A stretch of DNA of 55,389 nt from Clostridia bacterium (GTDB lineage: Bacteria; Bacillota; Clostridia; Christensenellales; Borkfalkiaceae), in the NCBI GenBank assembly GCA_017463425.1, contig JAFTPE010000026.1:1-55389 (forward strand), given 5' to 3'. Numbering within the stretch: position 1 is the stretch's first letter; every line of letters starts with the position of its first letter. The position numbers and the translations under genes were made by a program. This document shows positions 149 through 54,395 of this stretch, one piece after another. The notes below the pieces were generated by a model that was given only the letters and a program-made list of their open reading frames with translations, was not told where the DNA came from and did not search any database.

Positions 149-910
149 TCAAATCATATTCTCCAATATTAGTTTGTCCGCAACCAAGGCGATAAATTCG
201 CTGTTTGTCGGTTTTTCCGAGCCAAGATAAATTCTTGCGCCGAAAATGGCGTTGATAGCGTCAATGCGTCCTCTGTTCCAAGCCACTTCTATCGCGTGCC
301 GAATAGCGCGTTCCACTTTACTAGGCGTCGTATTAAATTTTTTCGCAATGGATGGATACAGTTCTTTAGTAACGCTGTTGATTATGTACGGACGTTCAAT
401 TGTCATTTTGATACCTTCTCGCAAATACACATATCCTTTGATATGTGGCGGTATACCAATGGAAATAAATATTTCACTGATTTTTTCATCCGTAGTTACA
501 GGTTTTCTCTTCGTTACGTTCGATTCCTTATCCGTCGAAGGCTTGTCTTTCATCAAGTCCCGAATACGTTCCATTGCCGCAGAAATCGAAAACGGTTTTA
601 CCAAATAATACGCCGCGCCCGCTTCCATTGCTTTTTCTACCAACGTATCGTTTGCACTACCTGTTACGATAATTTTTGCCTCAGACCACGTTTTCTTTAC
701 TGTTTCAATCACACCAAATCCGTCCGTGCCTTTTAAAAACATACTTACAAGCAACAAATCAGGTTTCAAGCGCAAAATTTCTTTTATTCCCGCATCCCCG
801 TCGTCGCCTGCATATAATACGTTAAAATCTTTGCTTTCGTCAAGCGCATCTTTCAACTGCTGTAATACCGCTTGATTCATCTCCAATAAGATTACTGAAT
901 TCGTCTTCAT
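149..910 (-). CDS. spo0A: Spo0A-family response regulator with a degenerate receiver
   Basis: 253 aa. Spo0A is the master regulator of entry into sporulation and stationary phase. It is normally activated by phosphorylation of a receiver Asp, then binds 0A boxes. The C-terminal half (about 140-253) is strongly conserved, with HIKGYVYLREGI, KKFNTTPSKVERAIRHAIEV and KPTNSEFIA, so DNA binding looks intact. The receiver (about 1-120) keeps Thr83 and Lys105. At the phosphoacceptor position (Asp56 in Bacillus subtilis) it has Ser56 (codon AGT at 743-745), and the acidic pair is Glu10-Met11 instead of Asp-Asp. A GGAGG ribosome binding site precedes the ATG and a SigA-type promoter lies upstream. The usual neighbour spoIVB is not beside it. 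It may be a paralogue of a normal Spo0A elsewhere, or the only copy in a lineage with altered sporulation. Confidence 0.95.
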   Translation of the reverse strand: MKTNSVILLEMNQAVLQQLKDALDESKDFNVLYAGDDGDAGIKEILRLKPDLLLVSMFLKGTDGFGVIETVKKTWSEAKIIVTGSANDTLVEKAMEAGAAYYLVKPFSISAAMERIRDLMKDKPSTDKESNVTKRKPVTTDEKISEIFISIGIPPHIKGYVYLREGIKMTIERPYIINSVTKELYPSIAKKFNTTPSKVERAIRHAIEVAWNRGRIDAINAIFGARIYLGSEKPTNSEFIALVADKLILENMI

Positions 911-964: not shown

Positions 965-993
965 ATTATACTACAAATTTTTTAAAGAGTAAA
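965..993 (-). promoter_or_regulatory. SigA-type promoter of spo0A
   Basis: On the minus strand, TTTACT (988-993) and TATAAT (965-970) are separated by 17 bases, and lie about 55 bases before the spo0A start codon. Confidence 0.7.
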
Positions 994-1073
994 GCATTTA
1001 TTTTACAATATTTAAAACTTTTTGTTCAATAATGAAAAATATTTTACAAAAGTCGTAAAATTGAAGCGAATTT

Positions 1074-1080
1074 TGTCGAA
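1074..1080 (+). promoter_or_regulatory. candidate 0A box upstream of spo0A
   Basis: TGTCGAA, within TTTTGTCGAAAG, matches the core Spo0A-binding motif. It sits about 80 bases upstream of the spo0A -35 element, in the short gap after the ABC-F gene. The position would suit autoregulation. A 7-base match can occur by chance. Confidence 0.4.
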
Positions 1081-7757: not shown

Positions 7758-8501
7758 TTATCCTTCTTTTTGTAAATTTTCCGACACCGTTATCACGGTT
7801 AAGGAAAGTGTTTCGTAATATTTTAAAATATCATCAAGCGCATCTGCCGTCGCCGCCATGGGATGCATTAAAACAAATTCGCCGCCTTTGATATTTTTCG
7901 TTGCCCGCGTATAAATAAGAGCGGGGTTTTTATCACGCCAATCAATCGTATCTCTCGACCAAAGAATGGTTTTCATTTTTAATAAACGACACGCCGATAA
8001 CGTATTGTCGTCATACGCGCCTGACGGAGGCGCAAACAAAGTCGGTTTTTGAGAAATTGCCAATTCGATAAAACGATTGCAATCGACTATTTCCTTGCGA
8101 TTTTGTTCGACGTTCATTTTTGAATGATCTTTATGAAAATATCCGTGATTGCCGATTTCGTGTCCTGCTGCATAAATATCTTTTAAACAATCTACGTTAT
8201 CGTCCGCCCAACATCCACCTATAAAAAAGGTTGCTTTTGCGCTATGTTCACCCAAAATATCCAATATCCGATATACTTCTTCCGTGCCCCAATATACGTT
8301 AAACATAAGAGATACACCGTTTGATTGATGCGGCGAAGAACGATAAATTTCAGTATGATCGCCCTCAGTTTTCAAAGCTCTTTCCATCGGCGCAAAACAG
8401 AGCGCGCCTATGGACAATACGAGAACGCTAAGCACAACGTTACTTGCAATATTATATCGCAACGAACATAAATCCATTTTTTCGTTTTTTTGAGTTTTCA
8501 C
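7758..8501 (-). CDS. ylxY: YlxY-like polysaccharide deacetylase, membrane anchored
   Basis: 247 aa from a GTG start, chosen because GAGGTGAT lies 3 bases before it. One membrane segment (about 20-37) anchors the enzyme, with the catalytic domain outside. The NodB fold is recognisable: ATFFIGGCW, HEIGNHGYFH (metal ligands His119 and His123), APPSGAYDD, and LMHP near the end. Motif 1, which carries the catalytic Asp (TFDDG in most enzymes, FDxxWG in the YlxY group), reads FNVYWG with Asn68. So the catalytic base is missing, and activity is doubtful or altered. The gene order ylxY-mlpA is conserved with Bacillus. Such proteins are often linked to spore or cell-wall modification. Confidence 0.88.
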   Translation of the reverse strand: MKTQKNEKMDLCSLRYNIASNVVLSVLVLSIGALCFAPMERALKTEGDHTEIYRSSPHQSNGVSLMFNVYWGTEEVYRILDILGEHSAKATFFIGGCWADDNVDCLKDIYAAGHEIGNHGYFHKDHSKMNVEQNRKEIVDCNRFIELAISQKPTLFAPPSGAYDDNTLSACRLLKMKTILWSRDTIDWRDKNPALIYTRATKNIKGGEFVLMHPMAATADALDDILKYYETLSLTVITVSENLQKEG

Positions 8502-28134: not shown

Positions 28135-29238
28135 TTATATGTTTTTCAACTGTTTATACGCCAAAAATAAAGCGTAATTGATTGCAGTTTCCGTAATTTC
28201 TTCCCTTGTTCCGTCAAATTTATACCGATAGACAAATACGCGTTCTTTTACGCCAACTGCAATAAAGCAAAGCCCTATCGGCAACAACGACTTATCCGAT
28301 TTTGGACCAGCCAAGCCCGTCGTTGCAATTGCAATATCGCAATCTCCTGTATTTAACAACCCCGTTGCCATTTCATACGCCGTTTGATCGGATACAACAC
28401 CCATTGTTTTTAACGCATACTCGCTCACGCCCAAGCGTTTCATTTTCGATTGTTCGTTATAGGTATTCAATCCCTCAAAATACACTTCGCTTGCGCCTGA
28501 TACGGACACGATTCGCCGTCCTATTCCACCACCCGTAAACGATTCGGCTACGCTTATTTTTTTACCGCGCAATTTTAACAAACGAACGAGCTGTTCCTCC
28601 AAAGATATATTTTCCAAAGCATAAATACTTTCTCCCAACCCGTCTGCAAACAGCCGAACGGTGTCGTCCAACAACATTTTCGGCGTTTTATCGTCATAAG
28701 TGATTTCTATAACGTCTTCTCCGTATCGTCTTGTATAATTGCAAGCAACGTTCTCACCGCCAAACGTTTTTGCCTCTGCAATCAAACGCTGTAAATGGGT
28801 TTCATTGCCTCCTACGCTGCGAATTACGTATTTTTCGGCGCGCACCCCGTACTTTTTATATAAATAAGGCGCGCATACGTTTTTTGCATAGAAAACGCCC
28901 GTATCGGAAACGTCATCAGATAATAAAAACCACGTCGATTTTGCGCTATCGTAAATCCCTGCGCCATTGACCCCGCCTTGATATACTCCCTCGGGGAAGG
29001 CTTGCGATACATAGCGTTTTACCGCCGTTAACAACGGCTTTTCCGATATAACAACGACGTTGTCAAATTCGTTTTTCAATCCTGAAAGAGTAGAAATAGC
29101 CCTATTTTCTTCCGAAACGACCAATAAGCGTATTTCGTCAAACGCATAACCGTTGAAACAAAAAGCGTCCGCGACAGCCTTCCAACCGTCGCCTATCACG
29201 TCTTTTTCATTTCTTAATACGACGCATACGTTTTTCAT
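28135..29238 (-). CDS. cinA: CinA-family protein with a degenerate N-terminal domain
   Basis: 367 aa, shorter than the usual 410-420. The C-terminal part (about 210-367) is the PncC/CinA domain, which deamidates nicotinamide mononucleotide: [35 protein letters not shown], and ATTGLAGP. The N-terminal part occupies the place of the MoCF (COG1058) ADP-ribose pyrophosphatase domain, but the family motif near the start (G-E-L-L-x-G) is missing and the GGLGPT motif is not found. So that domain is degenerate or replaced. Order pgsA-cinA-recA matches Bacillus and fixes the identity. Confidence 0.85.
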
Positions 29239-46626: not shown

Positions 46627-48381
46627 TTATTCCGTTTTTGACGGAGATATGTTTTTCAACGAAATAATTCCTTGAAAAATCTCCCCCGCAACAGGCGCGG
46701 CAACCACGCTCCCGTAATACGCGCCTTTGGGTTCGTCTACAATGACAAGAGCGAGATATTTCGGTTTATCCGTAGGGAAAAAGCCCACAAACGAAGAAAC
46801 GTATTTTCCTGCGGCAATCCGTCCGTTTTCGTACTTTTGCGCCGTTCCTGTTTTACCTCCTACGCGATAACCCTCTATATACGCCTTTTTACCGCTACCT
46901 TCTTTGATAACCCCCTCTAACATTTCCGCTAAAATTTTCGACGCCTGCTCGCTGATCGTTCTATTTTTCAACGTCGCTTCGTTTTCTTTTAAAACGTACC
47001 CGTCATCCGCGTAAATACGTTTGACAAGCCGTGGCGTATAATAATATCCGCCGTTAATCGCCGAAGCCGTCGCGCAAGCAAGCTGTATCCCTGAAACGGC
47101 TATCGTTTGCCCAAACCCAATACGGGCAAGGTCGCATCCTCGCACTGCTGTTTGCGGCAATAACAAACCGTACGATTCGCCTCCGTAATCTATCCCCGTC
47201 CTTTTCCCAAAACCAAACGCCGATAAATAATCGTAAAACGTATTCGTGCCCAATGACAACGCAATATCTGTAAAACAAGGGTTACAACTGTTGTTTAACG
47301 CTTGCGCCAAAGTTTGATTACAATGTTTTCCGTTTGCATGATTGCTCCAACATTTTACCGTCGTTCCGTCCACCGCGCGCGTACGACTGCTGGGAAATAC
47401 GTAATTTGTAGAAAAAGCTGCTTTATTCCCTTTTAAATATTCTTCTATATTCGCCGCCGAAGTTACGATTTTAAAGGTTGAACCAGGTTCATATATATCA
47501 CAAACCACGCCGTTTCGCGTGAGTTTGTTTAACAATTCCATATCGTTTCTTGGTACGTCGTTTAAATCGTAAGAAGGATAACTCGCTAAAGCCAAAATTT
47601 CAAACGTATTTACGTCTAAAACGATACATTCCGCCGACGTTGGAGTATATTCAACCGCCACCTTTTCAAGCGCGCTCTCCACGATTTCCTGTATCCCGTA
47701 ATCAACGGTCAATTCGACGTTATATCCATCCTCTGCAGGAAGATACGTCGCAACGCTCCCTTTCAAATCAATACCGACCAAATCAGTTTCATACAACAAT
47801 TCGCCGTTTTTCCCCGACAAATATTCGTCGTAATATTTTTCTATCCCCGTAGTGCCTATATTATCCGAAGACGTAAACCCAAGCACTTGGCAAAGCGCGT
47901 TGTTTTTAGGATATCTTCTGATATTATCACGCGAATAATATACCCCGTCAAGCGACGTGGCTGATAAATTTTCAATCAACTCTTTTCCTACTTTTTTCGC
48001 CACCGTTATTTCAGAGGCTTTTTTCTTGGTTAATTTTTCATATACTTTTTGATTGTCCAATCCCAACGTTTGCGCTAAAACAACAGACGTTTTTTCTTTA
48101 TCCAACACTGCATTCGCGCGCGCATAGACGGTGTACGCCGTCGTATTATCTGCCAACACTACCCCATTACAATCGGTTATTTTCCCACGCTGCGCTACAA
48201 TCGGCAATTCTCGCGTCCATTGATCCAACGCGCGATAATTTAATTCTTCACTCCAAATCACTTGCACGTATAAAAATCGCCCGAATAAAAAACAAAAAAG
48301 AAAGGTTACTGCCAACGCTATGGCTAGTAACCTCTTTCGTAAAACTGATACCGAAAATTCCTTATTAATTTGTTTGATAAT
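46627..48381 (-). CDS. class B penicillin-binding protein (FtsI/PBP2B/SpoVD type)
   Basis: Transpeptidase that cross-links septal peptidoglycan, with an N-terminal membrane anchor. Motifs: EPGSTFK (SxxK; Ser279 counted from the TTG at 48313-48315), NNSCNP (SxN) and VGGKTGTAQK (KTG). The dimerisation domain precedes them. No PASTA domains follow, unlike SpoVD and PBP2B of Bacillus. The start is odd. No ATG or GTG lies near the N-terminus; a TTG at 48315 would cut off the basic cytoplasmic tail and has no well-placed ribosome site. GAGGT lies 4 bases before ATT (48379-48381) and 7 before ATC (48376-48378), giving a normal tail KQINKEFSVSVLRKR before the membrane segment. The ATT start is used here. 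Confidence 0.9.
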   Translation of the reverse strand: MIKQINKEFSVSVLRKRLLAIALAVTFLFCFLFGRFLYVQVIWSEELNYRALDQWTRELPIVAQRGKITDCNGVVLADNTTAYTVYARANAVLDKEKTSVVLAQTLGLDNQKVYEKLTKKKASEITVAKKVGKELIENLSATSLDGVYYSRDNIRRYPKNNALCQVLGFTSSDNIGTTGIEKYYDEYLSGKNGELLYETDLVGIDLKGSVATYLPAEDGYNVELTVDYGIQEIVESALEKVAVEYTPTSAECIVLDVNTFEILALASYPSYDLNDVPRNDMELLNKLTRNGVVCDIYEPGSTFKIVTSAANIEEYLKGNKAAFSTNYVFPSSRTRAVDGTTVKCWSNHANGKHCNQTLAQALNNSCNPCFTDIALSLGTNTFYDYLSAFGFGKRTGIDYGGESYGLLLPQTAVRGCDLARIGFGQTIAVSGIQLACATASAINGGYYYTPRLVKRIYADDGYVLKENEATLKNRTISEQASKILAEMLEGVIKEGSGKKAYIEGYRVGGKTGTAQKYENGRIAAGKYVSSFVGFFPTDKPKYLALVIVDEPKGAYYGSVVAAPVAGEIFQGIISLKNISPSKTE

Positions 48382-52847: not shown

Positions 52848-52880
52848 TAATACTTTTTAATATTTTTGGAGCATCTACTT

Positions 52881-54395
52881 ATGGAAAGAAAAAAACAGCC
52901 CCCTATTATCGAACTTATCGACGTTTGCAAAGAATTTGACGGCGTTTCCGTTGTTGAAAATATCAATTTTTATATAAGGAAAGGTGAATTTATCACATTC
53001 CTCGGTCCGTCAGGGTGCGGAAAAACAACCACGCTGCGTATGATAGCCGGTTTTGAACTTCCCACTTCAGGAAAAATCCTTTTAAACGGAGAAGATATCA
53101 GCCATTTACCACCCAACAAACGCCCCGTAAACACCGTATTCCAAAAATATGCGCTGTTTCCTCATTTAAACGTATTTGAGAACGTTGCATTTGGCTTAAA
53201 ATTGAAAAAAATTGAAACTACGTATATTGATAAAAAAGGCAACGAAAAAATTAAATATAAAAAGCTCCCGAAAGAGGTTATTGACGAAAAAGTGAAAAAA
53301 GCATTGGAAATCGTTGATCTTTCAGGCTTTGAAAAGCGCAGCATTTCCACTCTTTCAGGCGGACAACAACAACGAATCGCAATCGCGCGCGCTATTGTAA
53401 ACGAGCCCGAAATTCTACTTTTAGACGAACCTCTTGGCGCTCTTGATTTAAAAATGAGAAAGGAAATGCAGCTTGAATTAAAAGCCATGCACAAACGCCT
53501 TGGCATTACGTTTATCTACGTAACGCACGATCAAGAGGAGGCTTTGACAATGTCCGACACCATCGTGGTTATGGCGGACGGCTGCATCCAACAAATCGGT
53601 ACGCCCGAAATGATTTACAACGAACCGCAAAACACCTTCGTGGCCGACTTTATCGGCGAAAGCAATATCTTTACAGGAGTAATGCCCAAAGACAATCAGG
53701 TACGTTTTTGCGGAAAAGCGTTTCCTTGTATGGACGGCGGTTTTGAAAAAGACGAACCAATCGACGTTGTCGTACGCCCTGAAGACGTTACGATTACCTC
53801 ACCTGAGGACGGCGTGTTAAAAGGAAAAGTTACGTCCGTTATTTTCAAAGGCATTCATTATCAAATCCTCGTACAATGCGGACGTTATGAAATTGAAATC
53901 CAAAGCACTTCCGCCCCCGCCGTTGGCGATATCGTGGGATTAAAAATCGCACCCGACGGAATACACGTTATGAAAAAGGAATTTACCGTTAATAAATTCT
54001 CTGGCGTAATCACCAAACGAAACACCGTCGAATTCGGCGACGGCGAATTTGAATGCGACGTTACGCAACTGTATCCAGGCAGTCATCTCGACGAAGAAGG
54101 CTATTTAATCACAACCAAAGGCGAAAAAATCGATTTGACCGATACGGAAGTCAACGTCGAAGTCGGTTTGTTGGATATCACAATGAGCGACAACGAAGAC
54201 GAAGGCGGCGCGCAAGGGCATATTATCTCTCTTATATATAAGAGTGAATATTACCGTTATATCGTGCGTACGGAAAACGAAGAAGATTACGTACTTGCTT
54301 GCGAAGACCTTTGGAATGAAAACGACAGGGTCAGTTTGATTATCCCCAAAGATAAAATCCGTCTTACTTTGAAAACCGCGGAGGGCAACAAATAA
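52881..54395 (+). CDS. potA: spermidine/putrescine ABC transporter ATP-binding protein, long form
   Basis: 504 aa from the ATG at 52881, 9 bases after TTGGAG; an earlier in-frame TTG is part of that site. PotA powers polyamine import. Walker A is GPSGCGKTT (near 43-51), the signature [14 protein letters not shown], Walker [12 protein letters not shown], and the switch [10 protein letters not shown] Lys-rich insert (about 118-135) is common in Bacillota PotA. A TOBE-type domain follows. The last 130 residues add a further acidic beta-rich domain; usual PotA is about 350-370 aa. Together with potB and potC this is a polyamine-type uptake system, though the substrate is inferred. Confidence 0.93.

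Follow-up and report, generated by a model that had tools for sequence, protein, structure and literature searches.

Near one end of the window, a term used here for the whole 55,389-nucleotide stretch of DNA that was analysed, lies a spo0A-like gene on the reverse strand (149..910), encoding a protein of 253 aa in which a receiver without its aspartate is joined to a Spo0A DNA-binding domain (PF00072 and PF08769). The protein scores 236.3 bits against the Spo0A equivalog model TIGR02875, above the cut-off of 200. Its receiver domain (aa 1-120; 551..910, reverse strand) matches PF00072 with 53.6 bits, and AlphaFold2 places in it five alternating strands and helices. The Spo0A_C DNA-binding domain (aa 140-253; 152..493, reverse strand) matches PF08769 with 137.6 bits; its recognition helix (aa 197-217) is nearly invariant in the genus, with an entropy of 0.08 bits per column, in keeping with the initial annotation, which had called this half of the protein highly conserved.

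The same annotation had assigned Ser56, Glu10-Met11, Thr83 and Lys105 to the receiver, and the codons agree. Codon 56, where the phosphoacceptor Asp is expected, is AGT for Ser (743..745); codons 10 and 11, where an acidic pair is expected (878..883), specify Glu (881-883) and Met (878-880); and Thr83 and Lys105 lie at 662-664 and 596-598, all on the reverse strand. The claim that this receiver lacks the residues for the usual uptake of phosphate thus holds, Asp56 and the acidic pair both being absent. These residues together mark a phosphorylation-controlled Spo0A, and the combination is missing from the window protein and family-wide. What is found, a PF00072 match and a predicted receiver fold with Ser56 in place of Asp, is the signature of an aspartate-less receiver or pseudo-receiver.

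The genome that contains the window (1.34 Mb in 48 contigs, 82% complete) carries Spo0A once; at E<=0.001 the only further match is to part of an OmpR-type regulator, with 25% identity over the matched stretch. Elsewhere in the window, reverse-strand genes encode a YlxY/PdaB-type polysaccharide deacetylase (7758-8501; TIGR02873, 174.4 bits, below the cut-off of 391.5), a CinA-like protein (28135-29238) that CinA models match from about position 165 onward, its N-terminal part being missing or replaced, and a SpoVD/PBP2-type penicillin-binding protein (46627-48315; TIGR02214, 512 bits, below the cut-off of 688). The last of these is near rsmH, and FtsZ is encoded on the same contig. On the forward strand, a PotA-like ATPase of 509 aa (52866-54395) gives two separate matching stretches, as would be expected of an insertion.

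Loss of the phosphoacceptor among relatives

A search of 121 genomes at E<=1e-20 returned Spo0A from 93 and no match from 28. Twenty-three of those 28 belong to the genus of the window genome, in which 34 of 57 genomes, the window genome included, have a match; 22 of the 23 are at most 84% complete and the other, G029, is 93% complete. The resulting alignment held 108 proteins, namely the 93 primary copies and 15 of 16 further copies.

Within the 34 genus genomes, residue 56 is Gly in 22, Ser in nine, Asn in two and Asp in one, so that 33 share the condition of the window protein. Residues 10 and 11 are Glu-Ser in 25 of these genomes, Asp-Ser in three and Glu-Ala in two, with Glu-Met, Asp-Val, Glu-Asn and Glu-Thr once each. 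The lone genus genome with Asp56, G038, carries Glu10-Ser11 and Ile83. The family, which we take to be Borkfalkiaceae in the order Christensenellales, is more mixed outside this genus: the 16 other genomes have Asp (four), Glu (four), Gly (three), Ser (three) or Asn (two), and all four with Asp56 are without an intact acidic pair. Among 43 genomes of other families, 36 have Asp and five have Glu; the remaining two show a gap, where the frame is cut at a contig edge, and a Tyr where the receiver aligns badly. The full acidic triad (acidic residues at 10 and 11 plus Asp56) occurs in none of the 34 genus genomes, in none of the other 16 from the family, and in 25 of 37 from other families (six rows of the 43 omitted).

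Because residue 56 is Asp in just one of the 34 genus genomes, a base error at codon 56 of the window gene, one of the ways in which the initial annotation could have failed, is very unlikely; the non-Asp residue recurs across the genus. The other way, a normal Spo0A coexisting with this one, found no footing either. A single Spo0A is present in 33 of the 34 genus genomes with a match, that of the window among them, and the second copy in the exceptional genome, G045, also has Gly56. The two G045 copies (L026, L113) share Gly56 and each has an upstream 0A box.

A named collection gave a similar picture. In the best 80 of 352 relatives, Asp56 is absent from 43 of the 44 nearest loci, which include Candidatus Gallimonas and gut MAGs titled roe deer, water deer, goat, sheep, chicken and 'Lapin', and present in 36 of the 36 more distant loci (Clostridiales MAGs, Peptostreptococcaceae, Clostridium and Bacilli). 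On Spo0A trees in which many branches are weak, parsimony counts 11 changes of the Asp state (93 rows) or nine (87 rows), and the other genera of the family do not form one clade on these same trees. The set also contains Spo0A_C domains whose receiver is absent or highly degenerate, as the primary copy in G120 (L219) and as second copies in G065 (L131), G070 (L150), G109 (L151) and G103 (L223).

Constraint on the receiver

Is a receiver without its aspartate simply decaying? Pairs of genus sequences share on average an identity of 0.59 in the receiver and 0.86 in the effector. Median dN/dS, obtained from the 7 of 595 genus pairs that were usable, the rest being too saturated, is 0.12 for the receiver and 0.049 for the effector. 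Judged from these codon comparisons, the Spo0A receiver is under purifying selection and is not decaying. Purifying selection and the single copy together rule out a decaying duplicate.

The AlphaFold2 model of the window protein (mean pLDDT 85.5, pTM 0.50) has a five-stranded receiver with pLDDT of 87-96 in blocks of aa 1-120, an ill-defined linker (123-136) and an effector made of helices; the receiver is thus predicted to fold despite the missing Asp. The columns of the former phosphorylation pocket are also more conserved in the genus than other receiver columns, with 0.74 bits of entropy versus 1.34 (one-sided p 0.001), and L9, N12, G41, G61, G84, F107 and E114 are invariant in the genus pocket and variable elsewhere in the order. 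In other families, the pocket columns have 1.74 bits versus 2.46 for the remaining receiver columns, and in the other 16 genomes of the family the difference is not significant (1.73 versus 1.97 bits, p 0.089). Since the contrast is found in other families as well and is weak in the 16 family genomes, it shows constraint and not a new function. The suggestion that the N-terminus may be inert therefore fares poorly against the predicted fold, the selection seen in the seven usable pairs, and the conserved pocket of the genus.

Kinases and the relay

The window genome has three receiver domains in all, and the two besides Spo0A retain the usual residues as judged by eye. One HisKA kinase adjoins an OmpR-type regulator and one HisKA_3 kinase adjoins a NarL-type regulator; no receiver frame of Spo0F size is among the matches in this 82% complete genome, nor among those in nine genus genomes. 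HisKA matches number one to five per genus genome. When all HATPase_c matches of eight genus genomes (G000, G001, G027, G034, G036, G038, G047 and G055) were listed, 21 of 22 kinase-like matches lay within 3 kb of another receiver gene in a count made by eye, the exception, in G034, being a 173-aa fragment close to the end of its contig. This count sets aside frames of more than 600 aa without a nearby receiver as gyrase- or HSP90-like (inferred from length), takes short matches beside SpoIIAA as SpoIIAB, and leaves one 138-aa match in G055 unassigned; for some of the HisKA matches no position is listed. In the genomes covered, the search for spo0F and sporulation kinases that had been proposed at the outset gave nothing of Spo0F size among the matches and few kinases, which in the eight genomes counted are nearly all paired with other receivers.

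G047, which is 96% complete, has two receiver domains, one of which is Spo0A, and a two-component pair stands beside sigG in that genome (L313). A similar arrangement is seen on contig C29 of G000 (L232:3134-11735), where spoIIGA and the sigE-like and sigG-like genes are close to the only HisKA two-component pair of that genome. Loss of Asp goes with a weak drop in kinase number outside the genus (p 0.036 raw, 0.027 per Mb, both uncorrected for kinship). One member of another family, G099 (0.9 Mb, listed as 100% complete), has no HisKA match, and its sole receiver domain is a Spo0A with Glu56; SpoIVA, SpoIIE and a SigG-like match are present and Gpr is not detected. This genome (L145, L169) is possibly a case of sporulation without any histidine kinase.

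0A boxes and promoters

A candidate 0A box, TGTCGAA on the forward strand (1074..1080) and TTCGACA when read towards spo0A, begins 170 bases ahead of the spo0A start codon. In the genus, 29 of 34 regions have an exact 0A box in this sense orientation no more than 200 bases from the spo0A start, against a background of 9 in 1116 windows; the 34 regions come from 33 genomes and from the additional copy in G045, the G018 region being too short. Sense 0A boxes also precede spoIIAA in 20 of 30 genus loci (background 8/806) and spoIIGA in 10 of 16 (background 15/566). The spoIIAA set consists of the 30 best of 57 genomes, all with matches below the family cut-off, and distances there run from the profile match, the start codon not being proven; for spoIIGA, 21 loci were taken, of which five had no SpoIIGA match, leaving 16. 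No 0A box in the opposite orientation was found in the 200-base stretches before spo0A, spoIIAA and spoIIGA in the genus, and no exact box near the spoIIE start in nine genus loci.

In the window genome, candidate boxes stand at spo0A and 86 bases before spoIIGA (PF03419, 108.5 bits), which forms a row with the sigE-like and sigG-like genes; the spoIIA operon was not found there, the best match reaching 49.6 bits. The view that target genes of Spo0A were kept is supported by these predicted 0A boxes at spo0A, spoIIAA and spoIIGA.

The spo0A upstream regions of the genus contain sigma-A-like -10 elements in tandem, near -137 and -95 (at least one of the two in 26 of 35 regions) and near -61 (32 of 35). 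In the window, the proximal promoter has TATAAT at 966..971 and a second upstream promoter has an extended -10 at 999..1010, both on the reverse strand, the latter recognised through alignment with rny. The near-palindrome TATTKTAMAATA is strongly enriched upstream of spo0A, rare in the window genome and seven relatives, and also present at rny and secA. It was considered as the site of a second spo0A regulator, an idea that was dropped because the aligned promoters show it to be a core promoter element, a sigma-A-like extended -10; at rny, a TTGACA-like hexamer lies about 17 bases upstream of the element.

Sporulation genes

SpoIVA is matched in 106 of the 121 genomes, 101 of them above the cut-off, and the window genome is well above it (584 bits versus 459.9). 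SpoIIE, which the initial annotation had listed for checking, is matched in 115 of 121 genomes, three above the cut-off, with 292 bits against 490.8 in the window genome. The best SigG match of the window genome reaches 353 bits, below the 457 that four of the 121 genomes exceed. The SASP protease Gpr is matched in 38 of 121 genomes (35 above the cut-off), and these are unevenly spread: the profile search detected Gpr in none of the 57 genus genomes, in 1 of the 16 other family genomes and in 37 of 48 elsewhere. SpoIVA is mostly kept in those relatives of the window genome in which Gpr is not detected.

Gpr may be too divergent to detect, because several relatives score just 97-202 bits. Sporulation nonetheless looks changed, because Gpr went undetected in 57 of 57 genus genomes. 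The initial annotation had spoken of sporulation changed or lost; the first half of this survives, and the second is too strong given that SpoIVA, SpoIIE, SpoIIGA, SigE-like and SigG-like genes are present. To our knowledge, spores are not known for the genus, and for this reason together with the undetected Gpr the programme may not make classical spores.

Loss of Asp56 and of Gpr tend to go together outside the genus. Gpr is found in 32 of 35 SpoIVA-positive genomes with Asp56 versus 3 of 17 without; outside the family, the figures are 31 of 31 versus 3 of 6. An independent-pairs test with four supported pairs gave no confirmation of this association.

Control of Spo0A without phosphate

In these uncultured gut bacteria, with the phosphorylation site and apparently most of its potential kinases lost, development must start by something other than the textbook route. 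Phosphate on Asp56 cannot be the input, yet the DNA-binding output matters, and the simplest model is a phosphate-independent Spo0A. We propose that a Spo0A without its aspartate, regulated through its abundance and through autoregulation, starts an altered sporulation programme, a reading with a probability of roughly one half in which the mechanism of activation is the conjectural part. In this genus and family of small-genome gut Clostridia, a Spo0A orthologue would have dropped phosphorylation as the input to the sporulation switch. The pseudo-receiver would still fold and most likely permit dimerisation and 0A-box binding without phosphate, so that Spo0A activity would track protein abundance. 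The tandem sigma-A-like promoters would set this abundance together with Spo0A itself, acting at its own upstream 0A box with feedback of a presumed sign, and Spo0A would switch on spoIIA and spoIIG, as it does in other spore-formers, leading to an altered programme in which Gpr is undetected and spores, if any, are surmised. Constitutively active pseudo-receivers controlled through their expression level are described in passages of PMC12632262, alongside ligand-regulated ones. The proposal draws on the family-wide loss of the pocket, the single Spo0A, purifying selection, the predicted fold, the 0A boxes at three classical targets, the sporulation genes that are kept, and the few and mostly paired kinases. 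Against it stand the absence of an exact 0A box near the start at the nine genus spoIIE loci, Asp56 in G038 and in four of the 16 other family genomes, the non-significant pocket contrast in those 16, and the weak fall of kinase number with loss of Asp.

What else could take the place of phosphate? The main rival is a ligand for the pseudo-pocket, a small molecule bound in the former phosphorylation pocket that would turn DNA binding on or off. This has a modest chance of being right. Purifying selection on the receiver is equally well compatible with a ligand role, conservation in the genus pocket exceeds that of the remaining receiver even with the catalytic residues gone, several of its invariant residues vary elsewhere in the order, and the ligand-regulated pseudo-receivers in those passages of PMC12632262 offer precedents. 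The same pocket pattern in other families, however, and its failure to reach significance in the other 16 family genomes suggest that the conservation may be structural. A replacement modification, in which a remaining kinase would act on Ser56 or another residue, is very improbable: Ser56 is there in the window protein and one to five HisKA matches are left per genus genome, but 22 of the 34 genus genomes have Gly at this position, and 21 of the 22 kinase-like matches in the eight genomes have another receiver gene as a neighbour. Ser56 as a general phosphoserine was rejected outright, Gly being the residue in most of the genus.

The input might also have been lost altogether, with sporulation or an engulfment-like cell cycle hard-wired, Spo0A permanently active at one constant level, and the receiver retained for folding and dimerisation only. 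The few kinases, the tandem sigma-A-like promoters, the small genomes from gut samples and the undetected Gpr all fit, and offspring production in Epulopiscium is seemingly hard-wired, although its phospho-acceptor residues are kept (parts of PMC3416734). We give this a small chance, because a 0A box before spo0A in 29 of 34 regions points to regulated Spo0A levels. The chance is slim that Spo0A is a remnant serving leftover or non-sporulation regulons while sporulation is being lost. Gpr undetected throughout the genus, no Spo0A match in 23 of its 57 genomes, and the faster evolution of the receiver than of the effector would agree with a remnant; SpoIVA above its cut-off in the window genome, the presence of SpoIIE, SpoIIGA, SigE-like and SigG-like genes, 0A boxes at spoIIAA and spoIIGA, and the same state family-wide speak against it.

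Beyond control by amount in this one protein, we would suggest, more tentatively, a family-wide dismantling of His-Asp control of sporulation. The phosphoacceptor, the acidic pair and the orphan kinases would have gone, with the early sporulation genes, the 0A boxes and the DNA-binding half retained; sporulation, or a derived developmental programme lacking Gpr, would be set off either by how much of an always-active Spo0A is present or by a receiver ligand, and Asp would have been lost several times in the order.

Relation to known systems

The protein resembles canonical Spo0A of B. subtilis and Clostridium in its TIGR02875 membership, domain order, near-identical DNA-binding half and Lys105, and the genus resembles them in the 0A boxes before spo0A, spoIIAA and spoIIGA. 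It differs in the absent phosphoacceptor Asp and acidic pair, in the small number of unpaired kinases, and in having no Spo0F-size frame in nine genus genomes. Bacilli and clostridia alike are said to launch sporulation through one key switch, phosphorylation of Spo0A (PMC3533761, in part). The clostridial pathway of direct phosphorylation outlined in sections of PMC6136694 likewise needs no Spo0F-size relay protein, as in the nine genus genomes; its kinases, however, phosphorylate the Spo0A Asp, a residue missing here, and hardly any kinase is unpaired in the eight genomes of the kinase count. Like Epulopiscium in the sections of PMC3416734 drawn on here, these host-associated bacteria would have a modified programme built from sporulation genes; unlike them, Epulopiscium has a Spo0A with phospho-acceptor residues and a listed gpr.

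Aspartate-less and pseudo-receivers (PMC4395418, PMC12632262) share with the present protein a predicted receiver fold and replacement of Asp by Gly, Ser or Asn, or by Glu in some relatives; the genus likewise keeps the first acidic residue and the Lys and loses the second acidic residue. The output domain, in contrast, is here Spo0A_C. 'Spo0' is absent from PMC12632262, and PMC4395418 has two mentions of Spo0A, one of them on Asp-to-Glu mutants. No prior report of an aspartate-less Spo0A was found in searches of open-licence PMC papers.

Presence of spo0A has been used to sort genomes by sporulation potential (portions of PMC11536998 and PMC8340488). Such potential was already proposed from gene presence for MAGs grouped with Borkfalkiaceae in PMC11536998, the terms kinase, phospho and receiver being absent from its main text. 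The retention of sporulation genes in reduced-genome Christensenellales has been termed quite unexpected (PMC12306168, in part).

These bacteria offer a natural experiment: Spo0A has lost its phosphate input, and its DNA-binding output is still strongly selected. This opens testable questions about the minimal input of Spo0A and about how pseudo-receivers are switched, and it may bear on those Christensenellales with reduced genomes in which sporulation genes are kept.
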